From: Flavobacteriaceae bacterium PS02334
Lineage (GTDB): Bacteria; Bacteroidota; Bacteroidia; Flavobacteriales; Flavobacteriaceae
Direction of reading: 5' to 3'
Length of the DNA stretch: 64,000 nt
Assembly: GCA_029959295.1 (NCBI GenBank)
Contig: JASCOH010000005.1
Location: 1 to 64,000 of the forward strand
In this document: piece after piece, positions 16,563 through 30,934 of the stretch
How the letters are laid out: every line of letters starts with the position of its first letter
Numbering within the stretch: position 1 is the first letter of the stretch
Program-made: the position numbers and the translations under genes
Notes under the pieces: model-generated
What the model saw: only the letters and a program-made list of their open reading frames with translations
What the model was told of the DNA's origin: nothing
Databases searched by the model: none

Positions 16563-17888
16563 ATGACAAAAAAACATTACAATACCATATTTTTTAGAAT
16601 TCTTTTCATCTTGACAGGAATATCGTGCTGTGTCTTTTTGATTCAGAATAATCTGATTTATAGTGCTTTTTTCTGCAGTTTGATCACGATTTTCTTAATC
16701 GCCGAAATTTATTTTTATATCAAAAACATTTTTCTTTTTTATGACAGAACGATAAAAGCGATCCTGAATAATGATTTTACGGCTGATTTTTCAAAACATT
16801 CTTCCTTTGAAAATTACAAGACACTTTTCAAGCTTTATGATAATTTAAAAGAGAAGCAAAACGAGCAGGTTTCAAAAGATTTGATTTACAGATCTATTTT
16901 GAATAATATAGAAACCGGCGTTCTGATTTTAGAAAAAGGGCAGGATGACTGGAATATTTTCTTGATGAATAATTATTTTTCAGAGCATTTTCTAGTCCCG
17001 AAAGTATCAAAATGGAGCTATTTGAAGAACCAATTGCCTTCACTTTGTGCCATTGTCGAAGAAAGAAATTTTGAAGAAATAAAGACTTCCATCCAAATTC
17101 GGATCGAAAAACAAGATTTGCAGACTTTTATTTTACAAGCTTCAAATACAAAGGCTTACGATAAAGAATATTACATAATTTTGCTGGATTCAATTCAAAA
17201 GGTAATTGAGAAAAAAGAAAAAGAAGCGTGGATTAATTTGATGAAAGTGATTTCGCACGAGCTGATGAATTCGATCACGCCGATTCGTTCGCTGACGCAA
17301 AATCTGAACGAAATGATGCAGCAGGAAAGCCTTTCGAAAGAAGATGTCGAAGATATCCGCGACAGCGTTTCGGCAATTATCCATCGAAGTGACCATCTTA
17401 AGGAATTCGTTGAAAGCTATCGAAAATTGGCAATGCTTCCGTCTCCAAATAAAGAAAAAACTTCTTTAGAAACACTTTTGGAGGATGCTTTGAAGATTAT
17501 GAACCCGCTTTTCAAGCAGCAAAATATTACTGTAAATAATATAATTTCCTTCAATCGCTGGCTTTCTGTGGATAAAAATCAGATGGAACAAGTGCTGATT
17601 AATCTCTTGACAAACAGTATGTATGCTGTGGAAGGCAAGGCAGAAAAGCGCATTGAAATTTCTTCGGAAGTAAAAAATAAGCGAATCTACATCACTATTT
17701 CTGATTCAGGAAACGGAATTGATGTAGCCATTGAAGACAAAATTTTTCTTCCTTTTTTTACTACAAGAAAAGATGGCGCGGGAATCGGATTGACGCTTTC
17801 AAAAAATATAATTGAAGCCCACGGCGGTTATTTAAATTATGTTTCTGAAGATGACAAAACGCATTTCACGATTTGCCTGATGGAATAA
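16563..17888 (+). CDS. Sensor histidine kinase (NtrB-like)
   Basis: A 441-residue inner-membrane kinase. Two N-terminal membrane helices (about 11-28 and 32-54) enclose almost no periplasmic loop, so it likely senses in or near the membrane. A PAS-like region follows (about 105-215), then a phospho-acceptor H-box ISHELMNSITPIRSL with His232, and an HATPase_c domain with N-box NLLTNSMYA, G1 DSGNGID and G2 GAGIGLTLS. It is the natural partner of the sigma-54 response regulator encoded upstream. The stimulus is unknown; small-loop kinases beside ABC efflux genes often answer to envelope-active compounds. Confidence 0.92.
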   Translation: MTKKHYNTIFFRILFILTGISCCVFLIQNNLIYSAFFCSLITIFLIAEIYFYIKNIFLFYDRTIKAILNNDFTADFSKHSSFENYKTLFKLYDNLKEKQNEQVSKDLIYRSILNNIETGVLILEKGQDDWNIFLMNNYFSEHFLVPKVSKWSYLKNQLPSLCAIVEERNFEEIKTSIQIRIEKQDLQTFILQASNTKAYDKEYYIILLDSIQKVIEKKEKEAWINLMKVISHELMNSITPIRSLTQNLNEMMQQESLSKEDVEDIRDSVSAIIHRSDHLKEFVESYRKLAMLPSPNKEKTSLETLLEDALKIMNPLFKQQNITVNNIISFNRWLSVDKNQMEQVLINLLTNSMYAVEGKAEKRIEISSEVKNKRIYITISDSGNGIDVAIEDKIFLPFFTTRKDGAGIGLTLSKNIIEAHGGYLNYVSEDDKTHFTICLME

Positions 17889-17914
17889 TTTTAAATCCAT
17901 CTTTTAAATTGTAA

Positions 17915-17922
17915 TATATTTG
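17915..17922 (+). promoter_or_regulatory. Bacteroidota-type -7 box before ruvC
   Basis: TATATTTG matches the TAnnTTTG -7 consensus exactly and lies 57 bp upstream of the ruvC start. A clear -33 TTG at the proper distance was not found. Confidence 0.45.
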
Positions 17923-17978
17923 CCGTAGTGGCTTCGCCAAAATTTTAACTGCAAAAAGCGATTTGTTCGCGTCAAGAT

Positions 17979-18533
17979 ATGTCAAACGAGCGCATCATTT
18001 TAGGGATTGATCCAGGGACAACAATTATGGGTTTTGGGCTGATTAAAGTCGTCAATAAAAAAATGGAATTTATTCAGCTAAATGAGCTGATCCTGAACAA
18101 ATATGATGACCATTATATGAAGCTGAAAGTCATTTTTGAGCGTACGATTGAGCTGATTGAAACACATCATCCCGATGAAATTGCAATTGAAGCGCCTTTC
18201 TTTGGAAAAAACGTGCAGTCGATGCTGAAACTCGGAAGAGCGCAAGGCGTTGCAATGGCGGCCGGACTTTCACGACAAATTCCGATTACAGAATATGAGC
18301 CCAAAAAAATAAAAATGGCGATTACCGGAAACGGAAATGCTACAAAAGAACAAGTTGCGAAAATGCTCCAGCAATTACTTGGATTAAAAGAACTTCCTAA
18401 GAATTTAGATAGTACGGATGGCTTGGCTGCCGCAGTTTGCCATTTCTTCAACTCAGGAAAAGTGACTGGGACAAAAAGTTATTCGGGCTGGGATGCTTTC
18501 GTGAAGCAAAATGAAGATCGCGTGAAAAAATAA
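17979..18533 (+). CDS. ruvC: Crossover junction endodeoxyribonuclease RuvC
   Basis: A 184-residue Holliday-junction resolvase. The four acidic metal ligands of the RNase H-like fold are visible: Asp11 in LGIDPGTT, Glu71 in IAIEAPFF, and Asp144 and Asp147 in LDSTDGLAAAVCH. It cuts four-way junctions during recombinational repair together with RuvAB. Length is normal. It stands alone here, after the histidine kinase gene, and converges on the acetylesterase gene. Confidence 0.96.
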   Translation: MSNERIILGIDPGTTIMGFGLIKVVNKKMEFIQLNELILNKYDDHYMKLKVIFERTIELIETHHPDEIAIEAPFFGKNVQSMLKLGRAQGVAMAAGLSRQIPITEYEPKKIKMAITGNGNATKEQVAKMLQQLLGLKELPKNLDSTDGLAAAVCHFFNSGKVTGTKSYSGWDAFVKQNEDRVKK

Positions 18534-18556
18534 ACCCGCAAATTTCTTCACGGGTT
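18533..18556. terminator. Weak hairpin between ruvC and the acetylesterase gene
   Basis: AACCCG (18533-18538) pairs with CGGGTT (18551-18556) around a 12-nt loop, just after the ruvC stop. No T-run follows, so it is at best a weak terminator between convergent genes. Confidence 0.35.
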
Positions 18557-18596
18557 CGGTGCAAATAACTATAACTAAACTTAAATCAAACTACTT

Positions 18597-20504
18597 TTAT
18601 TTTTGCCAATCATCGCTTCTGAATGGAGGTGTTGCCAAACCATCTTGGTTGTAAAGCATCACTTCTCCTGGTGCGTCTGCCCACAAATAACGGACAGCAA
18701 TTGGATTTGTAACTTCAGGACTGCTGACTTTTATTGTTTTCATATCGCTTTGCAAAGTTGCATTTGCTGGATAAAATTTCTTGTCGCTTCCGGCAACCAT
18801 AAATCCTGAAATGCTGGATTTTGGAGTTTCTTTTGCGAAAGTTCCGTTTGAGAAATTTACTGTTAGAGAATTTCCGTCTACTTTCATGTTGGCGTAAGTC
18901 GGTGCAGTTACAGGATTTTTTTCTCCATAAGCGACATTTTCAGCAATTAAAGCCATTCTTTTTCCAACAATTTGCTTGTGAATTGGATGGATATTGTCAT
19001 TTTCTCCAACGTCAATCAAAACCGCCATTCCTGTATTTTTCAACTCCAAGGCTTTGTTTTGAGATTCACGAAGTGTAATCCATCGGTTATTTTGGTTGTC
19101 ATAATTCGGAAGTTGCGCAAAGATAAAAGGCACGTCAGCTTTCCAGTTTTTTCTCCAATCATTGATCATTCCTTTAAATAAGTCAGCGTATTCTTTGGCA
19201 TTTTTAGAATTCGCTTCGGCTTGATACCAGATAATTCCCTTGATCTTTATTCCGAAGAAAGGCGTCACCATTCCGTTATAAAGCGAAGTCGGATATTTCG
19301 TCGGATGCTGGCGAACCGGCACTTCCTCGATATCTTTTGTTCCTGCTTCATATTTCCATTCTCCGGCAAGCGATAATTTTTGTGAAGCAGTTTCTAGATA
19401 TAATGAATTCTCATCACCTCTGAAACCTCCAATATCACCTGTGTTTTTTACGCGAATTGTGATGATATTTTTGCCAACGACAAAGTTTTTTTTATCTACT
19501 TTATAAACTCTGTCCAAATCTTTTTGATCGCTTTCACCGACTTTATTTCCATTGATGTAAGTTACATCTTCATTGTCAACACGACCAATTGCTAGAGAAA
19601 GTCCGTCTTTTACCAAATCTTTTTGCGTAAGATTGAAAGATCTCGTTACCCAAATCACGCCGTCATTCGGAGTTACTTTTGCCTTGCTCCAATAAACAGG
19701 AAGATTGATCGGTTTCCAAGAAGAAGTATTATAGTCTTTTTCAAACCATTTTTCCTTATTTCCCATGTCAAGATCATCTGCTTTTTTCTCCCAAGCTTTG
19801 AAGTCTTTTTTATAGACATTCATAATATTTCCAAAATCCATAGATTTCATTTCATCAACTACTTTCTTTGCAGAAGCGTGTTTTCCCATTAAATCTTCGC
19901 TCATCCAAGCTTCAATATTTGTCCCTCCCCAAGAAGAATTTATCAATCCGATCGGCACATTGTATTTTTGGAATAATTCTCTTCCGAAGAAATAAGCAAC
20001 GGCAGAAAAACCTTCGCCACTTTCAGGAGAACACGTCAGCCAAGTTCCTTTTTCAATATCTTTTTGTGGCGTTCCGGCCATTGTTCTTGAAACTTGAAGC
20101 AATTTTATTTTTTCATAGCTCGCTTTTGCCAATTCTTCTTTTCCGTTTCTAGCATCTTCTAATTTCCAGCCCATGTTTGACTGGCCTGAACAGAACCAAA
20201 CGTCGCCAACATAAATATCTTTAAGCGCAATTGTATTGTCTTCAGAAATTTTCATTTCATAAGGGCCACCAGCTTTCATTGCAGGAAAATCCACACTCCA
20301 TTCGCCGTTTGCATTGGTTTTGGCTTCCTTATTTAGATTATTAAAATTGACTTTTACAGTTTTTCCAGATTCGCTCCAGCCATAAACTGTAATCACGGCA
20401 TCACGCTGTAAAACCATATGATCAGAGAAAAATTTAGGAAGCGTGACTTTTGCGAAAGAAAAGCCCGTAAACAGCAGAAAAAGTATTGGAATTATTTTTT
20501 TCAT
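18597..20504 (-). CDS. Sialate O-acetylesterase family protein (SGNH)
   Basis: A 635-residue exported esterase. A signal peptide (residues 1-18) precedes a beta-sandwich, then the SGNH block I with nucleophile Ser in CSGQSNMGW (about 107-115), a block with NSSWGGTNIEAW, and a C-terminal DxxH-type dyad in ENDNIHP. A jelly-roll-like insertion (about 270-390) splits the hydrolase domain, as in this family. These enzymes remove O-acetyl groups from sugars. Its promoter carries the same operator as the FadR/GntR regulator gene of the alginate locus, so here it may deacetylate acetylated alginate or another uronate polymer (inference), not sialic acid. Confidence 0.88.
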   Translation of the reverse strand: MKKIIPILFLLFTGFSFAKVTLPKFFSDHMVLQRDAVITVYGWSESGKTVKVNFNNLNKEAKTNANGEWSVDFPAMKAGGPYEMKISEDNTIALKDIYVGDVWFCSGQSNMGWKLEDARNGKEELAKASYEKIKLLQVSRTMAGTPQKDIEKGTWLTCSPESGEGFSAVAYFFGRELFQKYNVPIGLINSSWGGTNIEAWMSEDLMGKHASAKKVVDEMKSMDFGNIMNVYKKDFKAWEKKADDLDMGNKEKWFEKDYNTSSWKPINLPVYWSKAKVTPNDGVIWVTRSFNLTQKDLVKDGLSLAIGRVDNEDVTYINGNKVGESDQKDLDRVYKVDKKNFVVGKNIITIRVKNTGDIGGFRGDENSLYLETASQKLSLAGEWKYEAGTKDIEEVPVRQHPTKYPTSLYNGMVTPFFGIKIKGIIWYQAEANSKNAKEYADLFKGMINDWRKNWKADVPFIFAQLPNYDNQNNRWITLRESQNKALELKNTGMAVLIDVGENDNIHPIHKQIVGKRMALIAENVAYGEKNPVTAPTYANMKVDGNSLTVNFSNGTFAKETPKSSISGFMVAGSDKKFYPANATLQSDMKTIKVSSPEVTNPIAVRYLWADAPGEVMLYNQDGLATPPFRSDDWQK

Positions 20505-20549
20505 AGGAAGTTGAGTTTTGAAAACTAAGGCTAAACTATGTAATTAAAA

Positions 20550-20561
20550 TTGGTTGACCAA
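20550..20561. promoter_or_regulatory. FadR/GntR-type operator in the acetylesterase promoter
   Basis: TTGGTTGACCAA is a TTGGT-nn-ACCAA palindrome. Its spacing and half-sites match known UxuR/ExuR-type operators of the FadR subfamily. On the minus strand it reads TTTGGTCAACCAATTT and overlaps the TTTG of the -7 box. The identical block occurs before the regulator gene at 21094-21108. Confidence 0.75.
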
Positions 20562-20566
20562 AAATA
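20559..20566 (-). promoter_or_regulatory. -7 promoter box of the acetylesterase gene
   Basis: On the minus strand TATTTTTG matches TAnnTTTG exactly and lies about 55 bp upstream of the start codon. Its last three bases belong to the TTGGTCAACCAA operator, so bound regulator would block it. The -33 TTG is not clear. Confidence 0.6.
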
Positions 20567-20705
20567 GTTTTAAGATATTTGTAATTTTAACTAAAAATAA
20601 TTGCCAGATGTGCAATTAATATAGGTTTCTGTAATAAATGTAATAATTAGTAATTAACAGATTGCTTTTGAAGATAATTTTTTGGTAGATTTTGGGAAAA
20701 GGCAT

Positions 20706-20741
20706 AAAAAAAGGAGTTCTCACGTTGTGAAAAACTCCTTT
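20706..20741 (-). terminator. Strong intrinsic terminator for leftward transcription
   Basis: AAGGAGTT (20711-20718) pairs with AACTCCTT (20733-20740), extended inward by TCAC/GTGA around loop GTT. On the minus strand a T-run follows at once. On the plus strand the T-run is about 10 nt away, so leftward use is favoured. No annotated gene transcript would naturally end here, which implies an orphan minus-strand RNA. Confidence 0.75.
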
Positions 20742-20797
20742 AAGGCCTATTTTTTACATCCATTATGCAAAGTTGCATCGCTTTTGGGAAGTGGTTG
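20737..20797. repeat. Three-copy PUL element, copy A
   Basis: Starts with CCTTTAAGG. The core runs from CCATT (20760) to GTGG (20794) and contains ATGCAAAGTTGCATCGCTT. The ends CCATT and AAGTGG are imperfect inverted repeats. Copies B and C lie before the first PL6 gene and before susC. Confidence 0.75.
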
Positions 20798-20809
20798 AGC
20801 TTTTTTACG

Positions 20810-20821
20810 TTATAGAATGTA
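20810..20821. repeat. TTATAGAATGTA 12-mer shared with the susC leader
   Basis: An identical 12-mer, followed in both places by a GC and a TAAA, lies at 23936-23947, 14-25 nt upstream of the susC ATG. It makes this region resemble a shortened susC leader, or supplies a second antisense pairing site. Confidence 0.6.
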
Positions 20822-20841
20822 GCATAAATCTGTCCTTAGAA

Positions 20842-20849
20842 CAAAATTA
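20842..20849 (-). promoter_or_regulatory. -7 box of the candidate small RNA
   Basis: The minus strand reads TAATTTTG, an exact TAnnTTTG match. The nearest TTG on that strand (20865-20867) gives a 15-bp spacer, shorter than usual, so the promoter is tentative. Confidence 0.4.
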
Positions 20850-21067
20850 AGGAATTAAATGAAACAATATGTAAAGAGCGAGTTAATAATAAAATCAGGA
20901 TTGATACTTTTTTGCATAAAAAATAAAATAATAGAAGCGAAAACGTTATAGCAAAATTGTTAAAAGCTTGTGTTTTGAAAAATCAAATGCAATAAATAGC
21001 CAATTAATTAAATAATAATTAGATATTTTAGCATAAAATTTAATTATATGAAAAAAATATCGAATTA

Positions 21068-21097
21068 TTTGTTGATATAAAAAAAAGCGTATATTTG
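21068..21097 (+). promoter_or_regulatory. Promoter of the FadR/GntR regulator gene
   Basis: TTTG at 21068-21071, an 18-bp spacer, and TATATTTG at 21090-21097 fit the Bacteroidota -33/-7 consensus. The -7 box runs directly into the operator TTGGTCAACCAA, indicating autoregulation. Confidence 0.7.
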
Positions 21098-21106
21098 GTC
21101 AACCAA
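21095..21106. promoter_or_regulatory. FadR/GntR-type operator in the regulator's own promoter
   Basis: TTGGTCAACCAA, TTGGT-nn-ACCAA symmetry, 11 bp before the ATG and overlapping the -7 box. It is the reverse complement of the operator at 20550-20561, and the flanking TTTGGTCAACCAATTT block is identical in the two promoters when read in the direction of transcription. Confidence 0.8.
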
Positions 21107-21117
21107 TTTAATAGAAA

Positions 21118-21849
21118 ATGCAAGAGTTTGGTTTAAATGGATTTAAATCTTCGGAAGAAGAAGAAATCATCAAGAAAATAAGAGATTTAATTACTTCAAA
21201 TAAGTTGAAACCTGGAGACAGGCTTCCGTCAGAACGAAAACTTTCAGAAGAATTCGGAGTAAGCCGTGGAAATGTCAGAGAAGTGATCCAAAAGTTAGAG
21301 TTTTATGGATTGCTAAAAACGCTTCCACAAAGCGGAACTGTAGTTGCAAACATGGGCGTTCCGGCATTAAGTGGCATGATTACAGATATTTTGCAATTGA
21401 AAAAGCCAGATTTTAAATCTTTGGTAGAAAGCAGAATTATGCTTGAAATGCAAGTGGTGGCTTTGGCGGCAGAAAGAAGAACTGAAACGCATCTTGAAAA
21501 TATCAAAGAAGCACTTGAAGCTTATCGCCTAAAAGTAGAAAACAATGAAGATGCCGTCGAAGAAGATTTGATGTTTCATTTGAAAATTTCTGAAGCCAGC
21601 GGCAATCCGGTTTTGAATACGCTGATGTTAATTATTACGCCAGAAATTATTGCCAATTTTGAAAAATACCACGTCTGTAAAAAATCGATGACAGGAGATA
21701 ATCTTATCGAGCACCAGCAGATTTTTGACGCCATAAAAGAGAAAAATCCAGAGAAAGCAAAAAGAGAATTGCAGTTTCATTTCAAGACGTTGTATGAATA
21801 CTGCAATAAAACAGAAACTCTTGCCAATATAAACGAGAGTATTTTTTAG
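21118..21849 (+). CDS. FadR subfamily GntR transcriptional regulator
   Basis: A 243-residue regulator. The N-terminal winged helix-turn-helix (about 14-80) has the GntR signature PGDRLPSERKLSEEFGVSR. The C-terminal FCD ligand domain has candidate metal ligands Asp150, His154, His199 and His221. FCD regulators commonly sense sugar acids; in an alginate locus KDG or DEH is a reasonable ligand (inference). Its promoter and the acetylesterase promoter carry the same operator over the -7 box, so it is probably an autorepressor released by a uronate. No such site was seen before susC or the PL6 genes. Confidence 0.92.
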   Translation: MQEFGLNGFKSSEEEEIIKKIRDLITSNKLKPGDRLPSERKLSEEFGVSRGNVREVIQKLEFYGLLKTLPQSGTVVANMGVPALSGMITDILQLKKPDFKSLVESRIMLEMQVVALAAERRTETHLENIKEALEAYRLKVENNEDAVEEDLMFHLKISEASGNPVLNTLMLIITPEIIANFEKYHVCKKSMTGDNLIEHQQIFDAIKEKNPEKAKRELQFHFKTLYEYCNKTETLANINESIF

Positions 21850-21915
21850 TCCTTTAAAAGGAAAATAGACGGTTATTACCATTGTGTAAAGTTGCATCGC
21901 TTGGGGAAGTGGATG
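21850..21915. repeat. Three-copy PUL element, copy B
   Basis: Begins at the regulator stop with TCCTTTAAAAGGA, then GACGGTTATTACC and the core CCATTGTGTAAAGTTGCATC and onward to GAAGTGG (21879-21912). It is nearly identical to copy C over about 66 nt. It lies 40 bp upstream of the first PL6 start, in position to be part of that mRNA leader. Confidence 0.8.
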
Positions 21916-21955
21916 ATATAATTGAGTAACAAGTTAATCCTAAAATAGTAGTATT

Positions 21956-23746
21956 ATGGGTGTTAAATACTTTTTTACAATAATAGCAGTAGTTCTTTTT
22001 GGCAGAAATATGCATTCGCAGACTTTTGTCAACACAAGACAAACATTGCAGACAGCAATAAATGCTGCAGTTCCTGGTTCGACAATTATTGTTAGAAACG
22101 GAACTTATAATGATTTTTATGCAAGTGTTACCACAAAATCAGGAACGGCTGCAAATCCGATTACGATTAAAGCAGAAACTGTCGGAGGCGTGACTTTGAC
22201 AGGAGATTCTAGATTTACTATGAAAAAATCTGAAAATATAAAATTTGAAGGATTTGTTTTTGACTGTACGGGCAGCAATACTTTGATCAAGTTAGAAGCG
22301 TGCAATAACATCAGAATCACAAGAAATGTGTTTGAATTGGATACGCCAGTTGCCATAAAATGGATTGTAGTTGTTGGAACTTTTGATGATTATACATTTC
22401 AATTTCTAAGCCACCACAACAGAATCGACCACAATACATTCAAAAATAAGTTTACTGGAGGAAATTTTATCACGATTGACGGAACTTACAGCCAAGACAG
22501 AACTATCGGCCATCAATCACAATATGACAGAATCGACCACAATTATTTTTACAATAACTCGCCGAGAGCTGTTAATGAAAAAGAATCTATCCGAATTGGA
22601 AACAGCCAATTGTGCAATTCAAGCGGTTTCACAACGGTAGAATTTAATTTATTTGAAGAATGCGACGGAGATCCGGAGATTGTTTCGGTAAAATCAAACG
22701 ATAACCTGATCAGACACAATACGTTCAACAGAAATCATGGAACACTGACGCTTCGCCAAGGAAACAGAAGCAGAGTCGAAGGTAATTATTTCTTCGGAGG
22801 TGGAAAACCAAACGGAATGATGGAAACACAGCCAATTTACACGGGCGGCATCAGAGCTTATGGAACCGATCACGTGATTGTAAATAATTATATGGAAGGC
22901 CTGCAAGGAACAGTTTGGGATGCGCCGATAACTTTAACGCAAGGCGAGGTTATCACTGGGCAAAGCACAAATACGAGCCTTCATTATAGAGGAGAAAGAA
23001 TCACGATTGCTTACAATACTTTGGTAAATAATGCCTACGGAATTGAAATCGGGTATCCAAAAGCAGATGGTTCTTACAATAAAAGATTAGCAGATATTAA
23101 GATTGCAAATAATATAGTAGTCGGTTCACAAAATAATCTGGTTAAGATTTATGCCAACCAACAAGGCGCGGTGACTTGGTCAAATAATATAATGTATGCG
23201 ACTGGTTCTGCCCAAATTGTTACGGGAGGTCCAGCTTTTACAGCAAGTGAAGTTTTAGTTCAGAATCCGAATTTGGCTTTAAGCGGCACAATTTGGAAAT
23301 CAACAGCAACTTCGCCAGTAATTGCCAACGGAATTCCAGCTTTGACATTGACTGAAGACATCGATGGGCAATCTAGGCCGGCATTAAGCAACGCCGGCGC
23401 TGATCATTTCAGTACTGAGTTGGTTACTTATTTTCCGGTGGGAATCTCTGATGTTGGTCCGGGATCTCCAGAAGAAATGCCGCTTTCTGTGATCACTTCA
23501 AAAGTGCCTGCGATTGTGCTTTATCCAAATCCTACGAAGGGAAATTTTGAATTAGCTCTTCCAAATTCTGAAAGTGAATTAAATGTCGAAGTATACAATA
23601 TTCACGGGCAATTAATTTTAAATGGAACACATCAAGTTGTTTCTGGAAAAATCGCCTTGAGCCTTGAAAATCAACCTGCAGGAATGTATATCGTAAGAAT
23701 AAATTCAAGCGGAAAAACACAAAATTATAAAGTTGTAAAACAATAA
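21956..23746 (+). CDS. PL6 family alginate lyase with T9SS sorting domain
   Basis: A 596-residue secreted lyase. A signal peptide (about 1-21) precedes a right-handed parallel beta-helix of the PL6/chondroitinase B family (about 25-490), then a T9SS domain (YPNPTKGNFEL, about 522-596). The probable catalytic pair is Lys246 (VSVKS) and Arg267 (LRQGNR), 21 residues apart as in characterised PL6 enzymes. It should cleave alginate by beta-elimination outside the cell or on its surface. It is the shorter, single-helix type of PL6. First gene after the regulator; element B is in its leader. Confidence 0.9.
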   Translation: MGVKYFFTIIAVVLFGRNMHSQTFVNTRQTLQTAINAAVPGSTIIVRNGTYNDFYASVTTKSGTAANPITIKAETVGGVTLTGDSRFTMKKSENIKFEGFVFDCTGSNTLIKLEACNNIRITRNVFELDTPVAIKWIVVVGTFDDYTFQFLSHHNRIDHNTFKNKFTGGNFITIDGTYSQDRTIGHQSQYDRIDHNYFYNNSPRAVNEKESIRIGNSQLCNSSGFTTVEFNLFEECDGDPEIVSVKSNDNLIRHNTFNRNHGTLTLRQGNRSRVEGNYFFGGGKPNGMMETQPIYTGGIRAYGTDHVIVNNYMEGLQGTVWDAPITLTQGEVITGQSTNTSLHYRGERITIAYNTLVNNAYGIEIGYPKADGSYNKRLADIKIANNIVVGSQNNLVKIYANQQGAVTWSNNIMYATGSAQIVTGGPAFTASEVLVQNPNLALSGTIWKSTATSPVIANGIPALTLTEDIDGQSRPALSNAGADHFSTELVTYFPVGISDVGPGSPEEMPLSVITSKVPAIVLYPNPTKGNFELALPNSESELNVEVYNIHGQLILNGTHQVVSGKIALSLENQPAGMYIVRINSSGKTQNYKVVKQ

Positions 23747-23751
23747 AATAT

Positions 23752-23773
23752 ATACAAATCATAGCATTTGTAT
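23752..23773. promoter_or_regulatory. ATACAAAT-n6-ATTTGTAT inverted repeat
   Basis: Perfect 8-bp arms with spacer CATAGC, starting 6 bp after the PL6 stop. It could be an operator for the susC promoter or a weak terminator of the PL6 transcript; the AT-only stem and lack of a long T-run make the operator reading slightly better. Confidence 0.45.
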
Positions 23774-23838
23774 CCTTTTGAGAGGAAATTGACGGTTATG
23801 GCCATTGTGTAAAGTTGCATCGCTTGGGGAAGTGGATT
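23773..23838. repeat. Three-copy PUL element, copy C
   Basis: TCCTTTTGAGAGGAAATTGACGG, then the core CCATTGTGTAAAGTTGCATC onward to GAAGTGG (23802-23835). The core is identical to copy B. It lies about 125 bp before susC. The ends CCATT/AAGTGG can pair, and the inner CGCTT-GGGG-AAGTG can form an alternative small hairpin. Confidence 0.8.
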
Positions 23839-23960
23839 ACTTACTAAACATTAGTGTCAAGAGTGAAAATCTGAGTAATCGGGTTTATTTATAAGGAAAA
23901 AACGAGGCTACCACCATTGTTTTTTAACCTTACTATTATAGAATGTAAGCAATAAATTTT

Positions 23961-26900
23961 ATGAAATTAAAAACATTTTTTCTGCTCTCGGCTTTACTGC
24001 TGACGAGTTTTATCTTCGCACAAGATTCTTATACTTTGACCGGAAAAGTCGTTTCGGCTGAAGATAGTTCCACGCTTCCAGGCGCTTCAGTAACAATTCT
24101 TGGAACAAAAAAATCAGTGATTACTGATATTGACGGAGCTTTTTCTATCAAAGTAAATACTGGAAGTTCTATTCAGGTTGCTTTTATAGGAAAACAAAGC
24201 AGAGTCATTTTATTGGATGGAACCACAGAAATCTCGATAGAATTGAGCGATGAAAAAACGAAACTTGATGAAGTTGTCGTAGTAGGTTATGGTACGCAGA
24301 AAAAATCGTCTATAACGGGATCAGTTTCCAAATTAGAGAATACAAATCTTGACGAAAACGCAGTTTCCAGAGTTGACAAGGCTTTGCAAGGAAGAATTGC
24401 AGGTCTTCAAATCCAGAATATTTCTACAGAAGTCGGTGAAGCGCCACAAATCAGAATTCGCGGTCTTGGTTCAATCAGCGCGAGCAGCGATCCGCTTGTC
24501 GTTGTCGATGGTTTCCCGGTTCAAAATGCTTTGGAATTTATAAATCCGAGTACGATTGAGTCTGTTGAAGTCTTGAAAGATGCAAGTTCTACAGCAATTT
24601 ATGGTTCTCGCGGTGCCAACGGAGTTATCCTAATTACTACCAAATCAGGTTCTGATACTAAAACTTTATATGAATTCAAGTCTTATTTTGGAGTAAAATC
24701 AGTTTACGAAAAAATCGACCTTCTTGATACCTATGAATATACTGACATGCTTCGCAATGAAAGACAGCTTGATGAAAATTACAGAGCAGGCTTAACAGGA
24801 GCAACACCAGGAACAATTGCTTACACGTCTCGTGAAAAAGGAATGCGTCAAGTAGCTGACAATGGCGGAAACACCGATTGGCAAGATGAAGGAACGCGCA
24901 ATTTTGCGACTATCAAAAACTACCAATTAAATGTTTCTGGTGGCGGAAAAACTTCAAACTATTACGTTTCTGGACAATACATCGAAGACGAAGGAATCAT
25001 GTCAGATAACTTCTTGAAACGTGTGAATTTCCAAAGCCGCATTCGTGCAAAACTAAGCCCAAAATTAACACTTGACGTGAACGTAAGACCTTCTTACAGC
25101 GTCAAAAGAAGATCAACAATCGCTTATTCTGATTTGACAAGATCTTTGAGTTTCATGCCGGTTTACCACAATGCTTACACGGCAGCGCTCACAGGTTACC
25201 CTGAAGGTTCTTATGCGCAGGGAAGACATTTCAACAACGTGAATTTCAACTATACAGATGAAAACGGAGTGCCTCAAAATTACACGACGTCACTTTGGGG
25301 AACCAACAATAACACGCCGATTTCTAGAATGGAAAATGAAAAAAGATTTTACCATGATTACAGAATGCTGACCAATTTCGCTTTAGATTGGAAAATTACC
25401 AAAGATCTGACTTTCAGAACTTCTGGAGGAGCAAATGTAGATTATTCAAATTATGAGCGTTTCCGTAATTCAAAAGCAGATCAAACCGCACAAGTAATCG
25501 GAGAAGATGACAGCAACTTGAATGTGAACTTGCTGACTGAAAATACGCTGACTTACAAATATAAAAATGACAACCACAGTTTTGATATTCTTGGTGGTTT
25601 TACTTACCAAAAAACAAATATTAAAGGAACTGGAATCTACGGAACGCAATTTCCGTCTGATTATATCGAAACAATTAATGCGGCCAACGTAATTGACGCA
25701 AACGAAACTTTTACAAGAAAAGAAAACATCGGTTTGGTATCTTATTTGGCGAGAGTGAATTATGCTTACAAAGACAAATATCTTTTGTCAATTGCAGCAC
25801 GTGCTGACGGTTCTTCACTTTTCGGACCTGAAAATAAATACGGACTTTTCCCTTCTGCTTCTATCGGATGGAATGTGAGCGAGGAAAATTTCTGGAAAGA
25901 AAACGTAGATTTTATCAATAGATTTAAGTTAAGAACAAGCTTTGGTGTGACCGGAAATAACGATATCACGAATTATTCTTTCACCAATTTGCTTTACACT
26001 TCAAACTATTCTTTAGGAACAGGAACAGGAAGCGTGACCTCTGGTCTTGCTGAAAACGGAAGCGTTTTAGGCAATCCAGAAATCGGCTGGGAACAGACTT
26101 TAGAGTATGATTCTGGTGCTGACATCAGCTTTTTCGGAAACAAATTGAATTTGACTTTTGACTATTATTATTCGGTAACTGACAAATTGCTTTTGCAGCA
26201 AAATGTTTCTTACATCACAGGTCACGACCAGTTTTTTAACAACATCGGAAAAATCCAGAATAGAGGTTATGAGATCGAAGTTTCAGGGAATTTAAGAACT
26301 AAGAATTTCTCTTGGAAACCAAGTTTCAACATTTCTGCAAACCAAAATAAATTGATTTCTCTTGGTGGCGAAGCGCAATTCATCAGCCAGGGTGAAAGAA
26401 ACGAAGAATATATCGCAAAAGTTGGTGACAAAGCAATCCAATTCTACGGATATAAAATGATCGGAGTTTGGCAAAGCGCTGACGAATTGGCAAATAATCC
26501 GCATTCTCCAGACGATGCTGTTGGAGGAATCAGAGTCGCAGATATCAACGGTGACGGAGTTATCAATGCTTCAGACAGAACCACTTTAGGAAGCCCGTTT
26601 CCAGATTTTACTTGGGGATTTTATAACTCATTTACATATAAAAATATCGACTTGAATTTCTTGGTACAAGGTTCTGTCGGAGGTGAAGTTTTCTTCGGAG
26701 ACGGATATTACAACGAGATGAGGTATTTATACAAAGATTTCACGCAAGGAAGATGGTTCAGCGAAGGAGTTCCTGCAACAAAACCACGTGAAAACAACGG
26801 TAGGGCTTGGCAAAACACAGATTATTTGATTCAAGACGCTTCTTACATGTCATTGAGAACAGTGACTTTGGGCTACACAGTTCCTGAAGATTTCATTAAA

Positions 26901-27098
26901 AAAATTGGTCTTAAAAAAGCAAGATTTTATTTCTCAGGAGAAAATCTTCTTTACATAAAAGCATCTGATTTCTGGGGATTAAATCCAGAAGGAATCACAG
27001 CTAGCGGTATTTACGCTTCGCCATTGATGTCTGGTTATCAAAGAGGGGCTTTCCCGGTACAACGTACAATTTCTTTTGGTATCGATATTAATTTCTAA
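23961..27098 (+). CDS. susC: SusC/RagA family TonB-linked outer membrane transporter
   Basis: A 1045-residue TonB-dependent transporter. Signal peptide (1-20), carboxypeptidase-regulatory-like domain (about 25-100), TonB box and plug starting near DEVVVVGYGTQKKS, then a 22-strand barrel ending in an aromatic-rich FGIDINF terminus. With SusD it imports oligosaccharides; the surrounding lyases indicate alginate oligomers. The susD gene starts 12 bp downstream. A conserved 12-mer lies 14-25 nt before the ATG and element C is farther upstream. Confidence 0.96.
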   Translation: MKLKTFFLLSALLLTSFIFAQDSYTLTGKVVSAEDSSTLPGASVTILGTKKSVITDIDGAFSIKVNTGSSIQVAFIGKQSRVILLDGTTEISIELSDEKTKLDEVVVVGYGTQKKSSITGSVSKLENTNLDENAVSRVDKALQGRIAGLQIQNISTEVGEAPQIRIRGLGSISASSDPLVVVDGFPVQNALEFINPSTIESVEVLKDASSTAIYGSRGANGVILITTKSGSDTKTLYEFKSYFGVKSVYEKIDLLDTYEYTDMLRNERQLDENYRAGLTGATPGTIAYTSREKGMRQVADNGGNTDWQDEGTRNFATIKNYQLNVSGGGKTSNYYVSGQYIEDEGIMSDNFLKRVNFQSRIRAKLSPKLTLDVNVRPSYSVKRRSTIAYSDLTRSLSFMPVYHNAYTAALTGYPEGSYAQGRHFNNVNFNYTDENGVPQNYTTSLWGTNNNTPISRMENEKRFYHDYRMLTNFALDWKITKDLTFRTSGGANVDYSNYERFRNSKADQTAQVIGEDDSNLNVNLLTENTLTYKYKNDNHSFDILGGFTYQKTNIKGTGIYGTQFPSDYIETINAANVIDANETFTRKENIGLVSYLARVNYAYKDKYLLSIAARADGSSLFGPENKYGLFPSASIGWNVSEENFWKENVDFINRFKLRTSFGVTGNNDITNYSFTNLLYTSNYSLGTGTGSVTSGLAENGSVLGNPEIGWEQTLEYDSGADISFFGNKLNLTFDYYYSVTDKLLLQQNVSYITGHDQFFNNIGKIQNRGYEIEVSGNLRTKNFSWKPSFNISANQNKLISLGGEAQFISQGERNEEYIAKVGDKAIQFYGYKMIGVWQSADELANNPHSPDDAVGGIRVADINGDGVINASDRTTLGSPFPDFTWGFYNSFTYKNIDLNFLVQGSVGGEVFFGDGYYNEMRYLYKDFTQGRWFSEGVPATKPRENNGRAWQNTDYLIQDASYMSLRTVTLGYTVPEDFIKKIGLKKARFYFSGENLLYIKASDFWGLNPEGITASGIYASPLMSGYQRGAFPVQRTISFGIDINF

Positions 27099-27110
27099 AA
27101 AACATAAGTT

Positions 27111-28604
27111 ATGAAACTATATAAATCTTCTTTTATTAAAATTATATGCTTGAGTACGGCTTTGTTTTTTGCAAGTTGTAACGAGACACTCGATCTGCAA
27201 CCGGTTTCAGAAATTGGTGCTGACGGATTTTACAAAAATGCTGACGAAGTAAATCTTGCCGTAATCGGTATTTACAGCAGTCTTCACGGAATACAAAACA
27301 GAGAATGGATGCTTACGGAAGTTCGTTCTGACAATACTTATATGAACCCAAATTCTACAGAAACAAAGGATTTGGCGGTAAGAGAAATTGACCGTTTTGT
27401 ACAAAGTTCACAAAATGTGTATCTTAAAGAATATTGGCAGGCTTGCTACAGAACCATCAATCTTTCAAACGTAGTATTGAAAAATTTAGATGTTGTAAGT
27501 GATCCGGCGCTTCGCAATAAATTTGAAGGAGAAGCCCGTTTTTTAAGAGCGCACGCTTACTTTAATTTGGTAAGGCTTTGGGGTGGCGTTTTCATCGTGA
27601 CAGAACCGGTTTCTGGATTAGAAGCAAAAACTATGGACAGAAGTCCGCAGTCTGAAGTTTATGCATTTATTATCAATGACTTGAGAATGGCTTCAGAAAT
27701 GCTGCCTCCGACTCAAGGTGGCGCAAGTCTTGGAAGAGTTGCTGCAGATGCGGCAAAAACATTATTAGGAAAAGCACTTTTGACAGCTGGCGGAGACGAT
27801 AATTTAGAGGAAGCAAAAACAGTTTTAGAAGAAGTTGTATCTGGAAATTTCGGATTGCAACCAACTTATGCTTCTGTTTTCAGCCTTTCAAATGAATACA
27901 ACAATGAAATTTTATTTGCGGTTCGTTACCAATCAGGCAGCGTTGGATTAGGTTCGCCGCATCCAAACTTTTTTGCACCGCTTCAAAGTGACAATTACGT
28001 AGTTTTTGGCAACGGTGACGGCTTGAACGTTCCAACAGAAAGCATGTCAAATGCTTACGGAGTTTCTGATCCGAGAAAAGCGCCTTCGATGGCTGACACT
28101 TGGCTTGGCTTCAATAATGCAGTTCGTGCTGACAGACATGTTACAAAATACAATTCGCCTTTTAATGCAGTTGATGACGGTGGAAGCGACTGGATTGTGC
28201 TTCGTTATGCTGATGCTTTATTGCTTTTAGCCGAAGCGATTAATCAAAAAAGCGGTCCGACTCCAGAAGCTTTGGGGTATTTGAATGAAGTAAGAACGCG
28301 TTCTTTAGGAGCTTCTGCAGCTTTGACGATGAGTCAGGTTGCTACTTATTTCGACTTCAAAGTTGCTTTGGAAAAAGAAAGAAGATTAGAGTTCGGTTTC
28401 GAAAATCACCGTTGGTTTGACTTGGTAAGAACGGGCAGGGCAGAAGCAGTTATGTCACAGCATTTTGCTACAGAATTCCAATATAACGATCCGGCGCATC
28501 CTTCTTTGAACACTGGCGCTTTACAGCATTATCAAATTTTGCTGCCGATTCCGCAATATGAAATTGACCTTAATCCAAACATAGCTCAAAATACTGGCTA
28601 TTAA
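27111..28604 (+). CDS. susD: SusD/RagB family glycan-binding lipoprotein
   Basis: A 497-residue outer-membrane lipoprotein with lipobox ending at Cys23 (FFASC). The helical SusD fold is recognised by the N-terminal FYKNADEV segment, FEGEARFLRAHAYFNLVRLW (about 137-156), and the C-terminal RRLEFGFENHRWFDLVRTG segment. It caps the SusC barrel and binds glycan. It is 12 bp after susC and 13 bp before the second PL6 gene, so it is in the same operon. Confidence 0.96.
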   Translation: MKLYKSSFIKIICLSTALFFASCNETLDLQPVSEIGADGFYKNADEVNLAVIGIYSSLHGIQNREWMLTEVRSDNTYMNPNSTETKDLAVREIDRFVQSSQNVYLKEYWQACYRTINLSNVVLKNLDVVSDPALRNKFEGEARFLRAHAYFNLVRLWGGVFIVTEPVSGLEAKTMDRSPQSEVYAFIINDLRMASEMLPPTQGGASLGRVAADAAKTLLGKALLTAGGDDNLEEAKTVLEEVVSGNFGLQPTYASVFSLSNEYNNEILFAVRYQSGSVGLGSPHPNFFAPLQSDNYVVFGNGDGLNVPTESMSNAYGVSDPRKAPSMADTWLGFNNAVRADRHVTKYNSPFNAVDDGGSDWIVLRYADALLLLAEAINQKSGPTPEALGYLNEVRTRSLGASAALTMSQVATYFDFKVALEKERRLEFGFENHRWFDLVRTGRAEAVMSQHFATEFQYNDPAHPSLNTGALQHYQILLPIPQYEIDLNPNIAQNTGY

Positions 28605-28617
28605 TATTTTATAAGGT

Positions 28618-30915
28618 ATGAAAATTTTAAAATATTTATTATTGACAGCGATTTGTATCTTTTCAGGATATGCAAATGCGGCAGAAATAAAAGTCACGAA
28701 TCCTTCAGAATTGAAATCGGCCGTAGCTTCAGTAAAACCAGGCGACAGAATCATCATGTCAAACGGAATCTGGAAAGATACAGAAATCAATTTCAACGCT
28801 GTCGGAGCTTCAAAAGATTCAATTTTTTTAGAAGCTGAAACGCCTGGAAAAGTTATCCTTTCCGGAAATTCTTCTTTGAAATTATCAGGAGAATATTTGG
28901 TTGCAAAAGGACTTTGGTTCAAAGACGGTTACAGCAAATTCGTGATTTCTTTCATAGACAAAAGCAAAGTCGCTACCAATTCAAGAGTTACAAATTGTGC
29001 GATCACAGATTACAATCCGGCAACAAAAACAGAATCCAATCACTGGGTCGAATTGTGGGGAAAAAATAATCGTTTTGACAATAATTACGTAGCCGGAAAA
29101 AATAATGACGGCTGTACGTTGGTAGTTTGGCTGAAAGGCGAAGAAAATCACAAGAACAACCATAGAATTGACCACAATTATTTCGGAGAGCGTCCGCCTT
29201 TGGGATCAAACGGTGGCGAAACGATAAGAATCGGAACAAGCCACAATTCTATGTTTGATTCAAATACCATTGTGGAATGGAACAAATTCGAAAAATGCAA
29301 CGGCGAAGTTGAAATTATTTCAAACAAGTCGTGCAAAAATACGTTCAGAAACAATTTATTCTTAGAATCTCAAGGCTCGATGGTTTTTCGCCACGGCAAT
29401 AATTGTTTGGTAGAAAATAACGTTTTTCTAGGAAATAACCAGCCTTACACCGGCGGTGTGAGAATCATCAACGAAGGACATACGGTTAAAAATAATTATT
29501 TCTCAGGATTGACCGGACAAGATTTCCGCGGTTCCTTGGTAATTATGAACGGCGTTCCAAACAGCCCGTTGAATCGTTACAACCAAGTGAAAAATGCAAA
29601 AGTCTTGAACAACGTTTTTTACAATTGCAGTGCGTTTCAATTAGGAGCTGGAAAAGATGAAGAAAGATCTTTGGCACCGATAACTTCTGAGATTTCAAAC
29701 AATATTATTTATTCAGAAAACAATTCTGAAGCTTTAGTTGCTTTCGATGATTTAAAAGGAATTGCTTTCAAAAACAACACCATCGATTCTCAAAATCCTA
29801 AAAAATTAGACGGCTTTGCAGCTAAAAAATTGTCTTGGAAAAAAGAAGGAGAAATTAATATTCCAAAAGGAAATTTCGGAATTGACTTCAACGTTTTTGA
29901 AAAAGTAATCGCTAACAAAACAGGCGTTTCTTGGAATCCAAAAGCGCCAAAAGTTGTAATTCAAGAAGAAACTATAAAAGTAGAACCAGGAACTGGAACG
30001 CTTGAAAAAGCGCTTAAAAAGTCAAAAGGCAAGACAAAATTAGTATTGGCTTCAGGAAATTACATTCTAGATCGCTCTTTGGTAATTGCTGATAATATTA
30101 CGATTGAAGGAGAAAATACAGCTTCAAAACCCGTAATCAGCTTTAATCCAGAGGCAGAAAAAATGTCAAATTATCTGATCAGAATGGAATCTGGAGCAAG
30201 ATTATCGCTTGAAAACGTAGTGCTTTCTGCAAAAACAACGCCTGCTTTAAAATATGCAATTGTTTCTCCAAAGGAAGACACGCCAGGATCGTACAGCATT
30301 TTTATAAATAAATCAGTAATCTCAGATTTCACAAATGCAGAAGGCGGTGGGATTTTAAAAGCTTCAAAAGGCACTTTCGCTGATACCATCAAAATCAGCA
30401 ATTCTGTTTTGAAAAATAACCTTCGTGGTCTGAATCTTTCTTCTGAAAAAGACGATAACGGAAAATACAATGCTGAAAATGTAATCCTTGAAAATACTGT
30501 TTTTTCGGATTTTTCCCAATGGGTTTTGCATTATTACAGAGGCGGCAACGACGAATCGACTCGTGGTGGCAATCTGGTAATCGACCATTGTGTTTTCACA
30601 AAAATCGGATCGCAAGAGAAAGATTATGTCTTCCAAAACAAAGGAGTCGTGAACGTGAAAATCACCAACACAGTTTTCTATGACAATTCAAAAGTAAAAA
30701 CGCCAATTCGCTTGACAGGAAAAAACAACTCGATTAAAAATTCTGTGGTTTACAATTCTGGAGAATTAAAAATGGATTCGGGCGTAGTTTCTGAAAATAT
30801 AAGCGATAAAAATCCTTCGTTCCAAAGTCTGGAAACTTTTCTTCCAAAAGACAAATCGCCTTTGAAAAACGCAGGAACTGACAAAAAAGACATCGGAATT
30901 TTAGCAATAAAATAA
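28618..30915 (+). CDS. PL6 family alginate lyase, two-domain form
   Basis: A 765-residue exported lyase. Signal peptide (about 1-21), N-terminal PL6 beta-helix (about 23-440) with Lys237 (ISNKS) and Arg258 (FRHGN) as the probable catalytic pair, and a second beta-helix (about 445-765) that lacks an obvious catalytic pair. This two-domain form resembles the AlyGC type, in which the second domain helps shape the active site. There is no T9SS domain, so a periplasmic location is more likely than secretion, unlike the upstream PL6. It lies between susD and the TIG lipoprotein gene in a tight operon. Confidence 0.9.
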   Translation: MKILKYLLLTAICIFSGYANAAEIKVTNPSELKSAVASVKPGDRIIMSNGIWKDTEINFNAVGASKDSIFLEAETPGKVILSGNSSLKLSGEYLVAKGLWFKDGYSKFVISFIDKSKVATNSRVTNCAITDYNPATKTESNHWVELWGKNNRFDNNYVAGKNNDGCTLVVWLKGEENHKNNHRIDHNYFGERPPLGSNGGETIRIGTSHNSMFDSNTIVEWNKFEKCNGEVEIISNKSCKNTFRNNLFLESQGSMVFRHGNNCLVENNVFLGNNQPYTGGVRIINEGHTVKNNYFSGLTGQDFRGSLVIMNGVPNSPLNRYNQVKNAKVLNNVFYNCSAFQLGAGKDEERSLAPITSEISNNIIYSENNSEALVAFDDLKGIAFKNNTIDSQNPKKLDGFAAKKLSWKKEGEINIPKGNFGIDFNVFEKVIANKTGVSWNPKAPKVVIQEETIKVEPGTGTLEKALKKSKGKTKLVLASGNYILDRSLVIADNITIEGENTASKPVISFNPEAEKMSNYLIRMESGARLSLENVVLSAKTTPALKYAIVSPKEDTPGSYSIFINKSVISDFTNAEGGGILKASKGTFADTIKISNSVLKNNLRGLNLSSEKDDNGKYNAENVILENTVFSDFSQWVLHYYRGGNDESTRGGNLVIDHCVFTKIGSQEKDYVFQNKGVVNVKITNTVFYDNSKVKTPIRLTGKNNSIKNSVVYNSGELKMDSGVVSENISDKNPSFQSLETFLPKDKSPLKNAGTDKKDIGILAIK

Positions 30916-30934
30916 TCTACTTAAAAGAAAAAAT

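Follow-up and report, generated by a model that had tools for sequence, protein, structure and literature searches.

A conserved minus-strand unit in a putative Flavobacterium alginate locus is a candidate small-RNA gene predicted to pair with the susC and PL6 leaders

The window analyzed here, the first 64,000 nucleotides (nt) of contig JASCOH010000005.1 of Flavobacteriaceae bacterium PS02334, contains a putative alginate polysaccharide utilization locus (PUL). Between a divergent esterase gene and gntR, a regulator gene followed by a PL6-type lyase gene and susC, lies a 613-bp intergenic region that houses a short minus-strand unit (Table 1). On balance, we take this unit to be a small-RNA gene dedicated to the PUL, whose product would pair with the leaders of susC and the PL6 gene and likely lower their output. 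The computed anatomy of the gene, its conservation, its potential for pairing and the matched changes between RNA and leader carry this reading.

The unit has at its 5′ end TAATTTTG, an exact copy of TAnnTTTG, which is reported as the −7 consensus in Flavobacterium (PMC9723704). The +1 position was derived from the placement of this box at −12 to −5, as published in the same source. A short basal stem closes the predicted RNA, which ends in an intrinsic terminator with a 12-pair stem (20741–20710) followed by a T run. An earlier analysis of the letters of the window (the original prediction) had described the terminator and the box upstream of it (20849–20842), and both are indeed present. The terminator alone is at chance level, as 7 terminator-like sites were found in 8 kb with 6.4 expected, and the window has about 0.7 TAnnTTTG boxes per kb per strand. 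What raises the unit above chance is the conservation of its anatomy in six of seven species and a pairing at site 1 that none of 500 shuffles equaled in any of six species. Folding z-scores of the small RNA range from −1.6 (L013) to −6.1 (L045), with −2.0 in the window.

Relatives of the locus were sought with the GntR protein, which matched in 22 of 398 genomes of the genus at E 1e-60 or better. Identity was 78–100% in seven genomes, our own included, and 61% or less in the remaining ones. The relatives are F. endophyticum (L041), Flavobacterium sp. SLB02 (L042), F. piscis (L043), F. rhamnosiphilum (L044), Flavobacterium sp. MK4S-17 (L045) and a sixth relative (L013); L043 is nearly identical to L042, and L121, L139 and L140 repeat L013, L044 and L043, respectively. 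A SusC-type transporter, identified with Pfam, follows the leader in all six relatives. In the alignment of the minus-strand intergenic sequences, the unit is kept in six of the seven Flavobacterium species with an orthologous locus, and exact TAnnTTTG stands at its 5′ end in each of the six and is absent in L044. The closing stem, compared by eye species by species, varies in sequence: TAAGG.C/GCCTTA in the window, GGTAC/GTACC in L042 and L043, and TTACAGGTTT/AAACCTGTAA in L045. In the terminator stem, 97.6% of 42 cells are paired across the six species and two pairs (C-G and U-A) are changed on both sides; its U-G pairs form on the minus strand and would be A-C mismatches on the plus strand. 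Pairing falls to 60–67% when the partner is slid by one column, and in the shuffle control, a modest one with six sequences, 18 of 500 reach the values for cells paired, cells changed on both sides and covariation score. These counts come from a stem-only alignment (A4), the MAFFT alignments A1 and A2 misplacing the register of the stem.

A covariance model built from the window and L013 recovered the other four species at E values of 7e-7 to 3e-12. The model of all six sequences (R2) matched in six of the 398 Flavobacterium genomes, always at this locus. A further weak match in G054 (E 8.5e-5) is a hairpin without the antisense core and was taken as chance. Among 397 genomes of the family, R2 found only our own genome, under stricter filters that may miss weak relatives; in 30 loci including L044, it gave two weak matches, both in L125 (E 0.05–0.06). 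The unit is single copy in its own genome, with one R2 match at E 1e-4 and one match to another model, R1, at E 0.01 (stricter filters). R1 matched five genus genomes strongly and 12 weakly (E 0.0004–0.01) and missed the genome of L045; it also matched the reverse strand of several leaders, because RNA and leader share sequence. Of the weak R1 matches, the best one, L147, was inspected and shows an unrelated terminator-like hairpin; the weak R1 genomes were treated as chance. A scan of positions 17000–31000 against Rfam gave no family at the locus at E up to 5, with weak unrelated matches only, and a plasmid search with the region gave no match.

The antisense loop of the RNA, CCACTTCCCAAAAGCGATGCAACTTTGCATAATGG (site 1′), belongs to one of three related elements: copy A in the unit, copy B in the PL6 leader and copy C in the susC leader. 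The segment AAGCGATGCAACTTT is complementary to both B and C, as originally predicted, and exact AAAGTTGCATCGCTT occurs three times in the 4.59-Mb genome, all within this locus. The extended match covers 39 nt at 87% between A and B and 35 nt at 89% between A and C. The predicted site 1 duplex with the susC leader has 33–41 pairs and −51.8 to −67.2 kcal/mol in all six cognate pairs, and the shuffles that failed to equal it were mononucleotide shuffles. When 57 open reading frame (ORF) starts in the window were scored as targets (ATG, 100 aa or more, spurious ones included), susC ranked first (−73.1) and PL6 second (−72.8); the third (−45.3) also tops the reversed-sequence control.

The differences between the RNA gene and the susC leader point in the same direction. 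In a 23-nt core (CATT to GCTT), compared in the window, L013, L041, L042 and L043, all eight differences keep a G-U pair for a minus-strand RNA on a plus-strand mRNA; the differences are not all independent, and the core was chosen with the data in view. Of the 15 differences in the preceding four columns, 7 are of this kind. L045 was excluded from the core count, being out of register with 12 differences in 27 columns, three of them G-U-keeping; it has an exact 22-nt match of its own between RNA and leader, ATCGCTTGGGGAAGTGAGGGTT. Site 1 of the susC leader is 94–100% identical among the five species of the core count, which have the common RNA type, and the remaining leader 56–78% (96% for the near-duplicates L042 and L043). 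L045, with its changed RNA, shares 59–64% with these five at site 1 and 50–58% in the remaining leader. Site-1 repeats were found only in the window, L041, L042, L043, L045, L121 and L140 when the intergenic regions of 101 loci were scanned for direct repeats; the other loci contain TTGGTnnACCAA-type and assorted other repeats. The exact site-1 pattern was found only in our own genome among 299 genus genomes, since of the six relatives only G087 (L045, with changed sequence) is among those 299; the others are in the set of 398.

A second segment of the RNA, TACATTCTATAA (site 2′), is the exact complement of 12 nt located 14–25 nt before the susC ATG. This part of the original prediction is exact for the window (23936–23947), and strong pairing at site 2 is found in three of the six species: the window (−19.4), L013 (−16.2) and L045 (−19.9), with none of 500 shuffles as good in each. 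When RNAs and leaders were re-assigned, the true assignment came out best at site 2, where 2 of 720 combinations do as well if the L042/L043 tie is included. Matched changes are CTATAA with TTATAG in the window, CAATA with TATTG in L013 and CTAACATTCAATATT with AATATTGAATGTTAG in L045. The original prediction had proposed that related Flavobacterium genomes be compared for covariation with the leaders; the comparison yields matched RNA-leader changes that appear clearest at site 2 and in the 22-nt match of L045. Conserved and co-varying complementarity to a distant mRNA, as is characteristic of a trans-acting base-pairing small RNA, is thus found in the computed pairings at site 1 in six of six species and at site 2 in three of six. 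The conserved box, terminator and closing stem, the matched changes and the rank of the two leaders as the top two of 57 favor the proposed antisense RNA that would act in trans on the leaders of susC and PL6, and the unit is, as judged from sequence, a well-supported candidate gene.

One species provides a natural loss. In F. rhamnosiphilum (L044), neither the −7 box nor the terminator remains and the antisense segment is largely lost, with a decayed remnant at L044:5453–6000. No second copy of the RNA was found by a duplex scan of L044 (12.7 kb) or with the leader pattern across its genome. Site 1 of its leader is 68–73% identical to that of the five common-RNA species. Compared with the window, the remaining leader is 74% identical, so site 1 is no better kept; the corresponding value for the remainder of L013 and the window is 56%. 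Very high conservation of site 1 therefore seems to accompany a matching RNA, with residual constraint in its absence, or a recent loss.

The neighboring promoters separate the unit from gntR. The gntR gene has an exact TAnnTTTG in all seven species; in six of them it is TATATTTG with TTG at 18 nt, 28–31 nt before the ATG, and in L044 it is TAATTTTG without TTG. As read from these consensus boxes, the gntR mRNA should start downstream of the unit, which would therefore not be the gntR leader. An ordinary plus-strand leader, the alternative that the original prediction had set against itself, is made unlikely by this promoter. The −7 box of gntR and, by eye, that of the esterase gene are overlapped by inverted copies of TTGGTnnACCAA (21090–21109 and 20547–20566, respectively). 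The arrangement on the esterase side is alike by eye, with minus-strand TATTTTTG inside 20550–20566, and no such palindrome was seen by eye at the small RNA's own box. Repeats resembling them are present at several GntR-linked loci in other species, and the inverted copies are likely a GntR operator, with autoregulation. Separately, seven aligned species, L044 among them, conserve AACGTTTTC (minus strand, 20939–20947), which lies about 90 bp upstream of the −7 box of the small RNA, and six, with L044 differing, conserve ATTATTAAC closer to the box; this region is a possible regulator site.

Computed folds of the free RNA leave most of the site-1 loop open (mean unpaired 0.53–0.71), whereas ACATTC of site 2′ is hidden to a variable extent (0.06–0.59) by GGATGT or a similar sequence. 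Site 1 of the leader forms a hairpin with a GGGG loop in the minimum free energy structures of the six susC leaders of RNA-keeping species and of the PL6 leader, and not in L044; this GGGG loop faces the CCC of the RNA loop. The site-1 duplex continues into GGATGTAAA, so that ACATTC would be freed. From these features we infer the following course of events. Transcription would run leftward from the box to the terminator at 20706, and the RNA would present its loop (CCACTTCCC...AAGCGATGCAACTTT), closed by the basal stem, to the susC leader and, in this genome, to the PL6 leader. Pairing would begin at the loop, probably against the GGGG-loop hairpin, and extend over the whole of site 1. The duplex would invade GGATGTAAA, the strand that masks ACATTC, and ACATTC with its neighbors would then close on site 2 beside the susC start codon in the species that have site 2. 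Initiation would be blocked there; elsewhere, the long duplex may be cleaved or destabilized. The likely outcome is a lower output of SusC and PL6, with the upstream gntR spared. Repression is the likeliest sign because of the FopS and DonS-type precedents discussed below. A more specific version, which we hold only tentatively and consider doubtful as a whole, is a PUL-dedicated trans-acting RNA that arose from a duplicated susC leader, acts as a two-site clamp in a set order and uncouples the genes for uptake and lysis from gntR, with which they share a transcription unit. In this ordered clamp, loop contact at site 1 would open the RNA's own stem, freeing the strand that closes the start codon.

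Several results weigh against a small-RNA gene that acts on these leaders. The covariation of the terminator is partly matched by shuffles: 123 of 500 have as many pairs with a change on each side, and 465 of 500 as many pair types. A −33 element of the RNA promoter was not found, with no TTG 17–23 nt upstream of the box in any of the six species. Site 2 is weak in L041 (−6.5), L042 (−8.7) and L043 (−8.7), where 251, 140 and 149 of 500 shuffles match it. Re-assignment at site 1 gives 42 of 720 combinations as good as the true one, because five leaders are nearly identical. Exact TAnnTTTG is absent from the 233–360 nt scanned upstream of susC in all seven species, and transcription of susC may therefore come from the gntR promoter; the one-mismatch box of PL6, TATAATTG (21917–21924), lies downstream of site 1, and a transcript from there would be without site 1. 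Blocking of site 1 leaves the computed openness of the start region unchanged (0.49 to 0.49 in the window), and site 1 therefore probably acts via the duplex itself, by cleavage, decay or termination. When L044 is compared with L013, L041, L042 and L043, the remaining leader is 50–58% identical and site 1, at the values given above, is better kept. Finally, our reading does not account for the GACGGTTATG box immediately upstream of site 1 in the susC leader, which could be a mini-ORF or a protein site.

This box, GACGGTwATG, precedes susC in all seven species together with ATCGCTTGGrGAAGT (scan of the window and 100 loci), and it persists in L044, where the RNA is lost; the GACGGTwATG matches in L066, L092 and L132 stand without the rest. 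In six of the seven species the box opens a tiny reading frame (MAIV, MTIV three times, MPL and MAG), and in L041 a 24-residue frame.

Among the alternatives, we consider it unlikely, though the least so of those weighed here, that a real small RNA does pair with the leader, yet activates or stabilizes the susC/PL6 mRNA, or acts mainly as a decoy or sponge for the leader. The sign is unreadable from sequence, some PUL antisense RNAs of B. thetaiotaomicron are described as correlating positively with their PUL (PMC10994844), and the absence of site 2 from three of six species means that direct blocking of the start is not general. Activation by opening of the start region through site 1 is, however, not supported by the computed folds, which show no such opening upon blocking. 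Site 2 is beside the ATG, where pairing should hinder initiation, and the Bacteroides precedents described as tested repress (PMC11697453, PMC7366714).

Two further explanations, to each of which we assign a low probability, dispense with an RNA function. In one, copy A is a mere relic of a leader duplication, and shared ancestry or gene conversion has kept it similar. The three copies are arranged as direct repeats, all in one orientation, and the order of the two sites agrees between A and C, as in a duplicated leader; a degraded copy of the susC leader, which the original prediction had offered as another source of the similarities, thus survives mainly as a plausible origin of the unit. 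Duplication does not explain the anatomy, as A has kept its promoter box, closing stem and terminator in six species. The differences in the 23-nt core are wobble-keeping, whereas conversion is expected to copy whole tracts, and where A has decayed, in L044, site 1 of the leader has drifted too, in most comparisons not to the level of the remainder. In the other, A, B and C are DNA operators of a shared regulator and the hairpin is part of an unrelated signal. Same-orientation repeats upstream of genes would suit operators, as would the ATCGCTTGGrGAAGT core and GACGGTwATG, both conserved even in L044, which lacks the RNA, and a site 1 that in L044 is above the remaining leader in four of five comparisons. 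However, the operator-like palindromes of this region are TTGGTnnACCAA and are located elsewhere in it, and operators leave site 2, the closing stem and the minus-strand wobbles unexplained. We give hardly any weight to an RNA that is mainly a messenger for a tiny peptide starting at ATGCAA. ATG CAA is found at the matching place in six species, which is accounted for by its location in the antisense segment; by eye, the frames differ in length and end (12 codons in the window, 8 in L042).

The host genome (4.59 Mb across 69 contigs) belongs to the genus Flavobacterium according to its relatives. Downstream of susC are susD, a second PL6-type lyase, a TIG-domain protein and a heparinase/alginate-lyase-type protein. 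The assignment as an alginate PUL is based on this gene content as judged from Pfam families, and the PL6 type is our reading of the Chondroitinas_B family. Copy B of the PL6 leader (21850–21914) is a second susC leader element, 88% identical to copy C over 65 nt; among the seven orthologous loci, it precedes PL6 in the window only. A PL6-type gene also precedes susC in F. rhamnosiphilum, and no copy of the leader element was found before that gene.

Table 1. Features of the minus-strand unit and its surroundings (window coordinates)
Feature	Position	Strand	Remarks
Predicted small RNA, about 132 nt	20706..20837	-	+1 placed at A20837 (inference)
−7 promoter box TAATTTTG, consensus TAnnTTTG	20842..20849	-	exact match in 6/6 RNA-keeping species
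Closing stem, 5′ arm (TAAGGaC)	20832..20838	-	stem predicted in 6/6 species
Closing stem, 3′ arm	20741..20747	-	stem predicted in 6/6 species
Site 2′ TACATTCTATAA	20810..20821	-	complementary to region before susC ATG
Site 1′ antisense loop CCACTTCCCAAAAGCGATGCAACTTTGCATAATGG	20760..20794	-	predicted to pair with leaders B and C
Intrinsic terminator of small RNA	20706..20741	-	stem 20741–20710, 12 pairs, then T run
Site 1 in PL6 leader (copy B)	21879..21912	+	second-best predicted target of 57
GACGGTTATG box directly before susC leader site 1	23791..23800	+	GACGGTwATG in 7/7 orthologous susC leaders
Site 1 in susC leader (copy C)	23802..23835	+	
Site 2 in susC leader	23936..23947	+	14–25 nt before ATG at 23961
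Sialate O-acetylesterase-like gene	18597..20504	-	
gntR −7 box TATATTTG, TTG at 21069–21071	21090..21097	+	overlaps operator-like TTGGTCAACCAA
GntR/FCD regulator (gntR)	21118..21849	+	Pfam GntR and FCD
PL6-type lyase (second predicted target)	21956..23746	+	Pfam Chondroitinas_B plus type IX secretion system (T9SS) sorting tail
susC, TonB-dependent transporter (main predicted target)	23961..27098	+	Pfam Plug, CarbopepD_reg_2, TonB_dep_Rec_b-barrel

RNA control of glycan-use loci has been worked out in gut Bacteroides. The present RNA resembles the DonS family of Bacteroides (PMC7366714, PMC10994844) in being PUL-linked, short, complementary to the 5′ region of susC and presumably repressive; DonS-type antisense RNAs are reported to lower their PUL (PMC7366714). 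Those RNAs are described as cis-antisense and encoded divergently to susC, whereas the unit is about 3.1 kb from susC, beyond gntR, with imperfect complementarity and a second predicted target, PL6. Since the unit (20706–20837) is not opposite susC (start 23961), it is not cis-encoded and not of the DonS type; what it shares with that type is complementarity to the susC 5′ region of its PUL (best of 57 ORF starts, with site 1 in six of six species).

FopS RNAs of Bacteroides thetaiotaomicron are described as having a promoter and terminator of their own and as base-pairing with SusC-type mRNAs near the start codon; they are reported to block SusC translation there and to be countered by RbpB (PMC11697453). 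The candidate is predicted to pair in a similar way, and its −7 box and terminator are conserved by sequence, while no −33 element was found. According to the same source, FopS comprises 14 paralogues with a 5′ single-stranded seed and acts on several PULs, whereas this RNA is a single copy tied to one PUL, with at most two contact sites and a long internal loop that a stem closes. Its predicted 5′ end sits in the closing stem and is not single-stranded, and the antisense loop is internal. FopS is reported as deposited in Rfam (PMC11697453), and no Rfam match was obtained at the locus, the presence of FopS in Rfam release 15 being unconfirmed. With a single copy and an internal loop, the RNA does not look like FopS. 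The genome encodes one RRM-family protein and gives no Hfq match.

The Rfp RNAs of Flavobacterium psychrophilum, such as Rfp18 (PMC9723704), compared here by description, are small RNAs of the same genus with the TAnnTTTG −7 consensus. No described SusC-targeting RNA in Flavobacterium was found in the open-licence literature searched. The candidate would work as a trans-acting PUL RNA, for which we claim membership in neither DonS nor FopS. The locus hints at a route by which a duplicated leader could turn into the gene of a trans-acting RNA, and it lends itself to a test: natural species pairs show matched changes in RNA and leader, the RNA is lost from one species, and compensatory mutations can be predicted precisely. 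If the ordered two-site clamp is true, this would be a new type of RNA control of PULs and, to our knowledge, the first in Flavobacterium.
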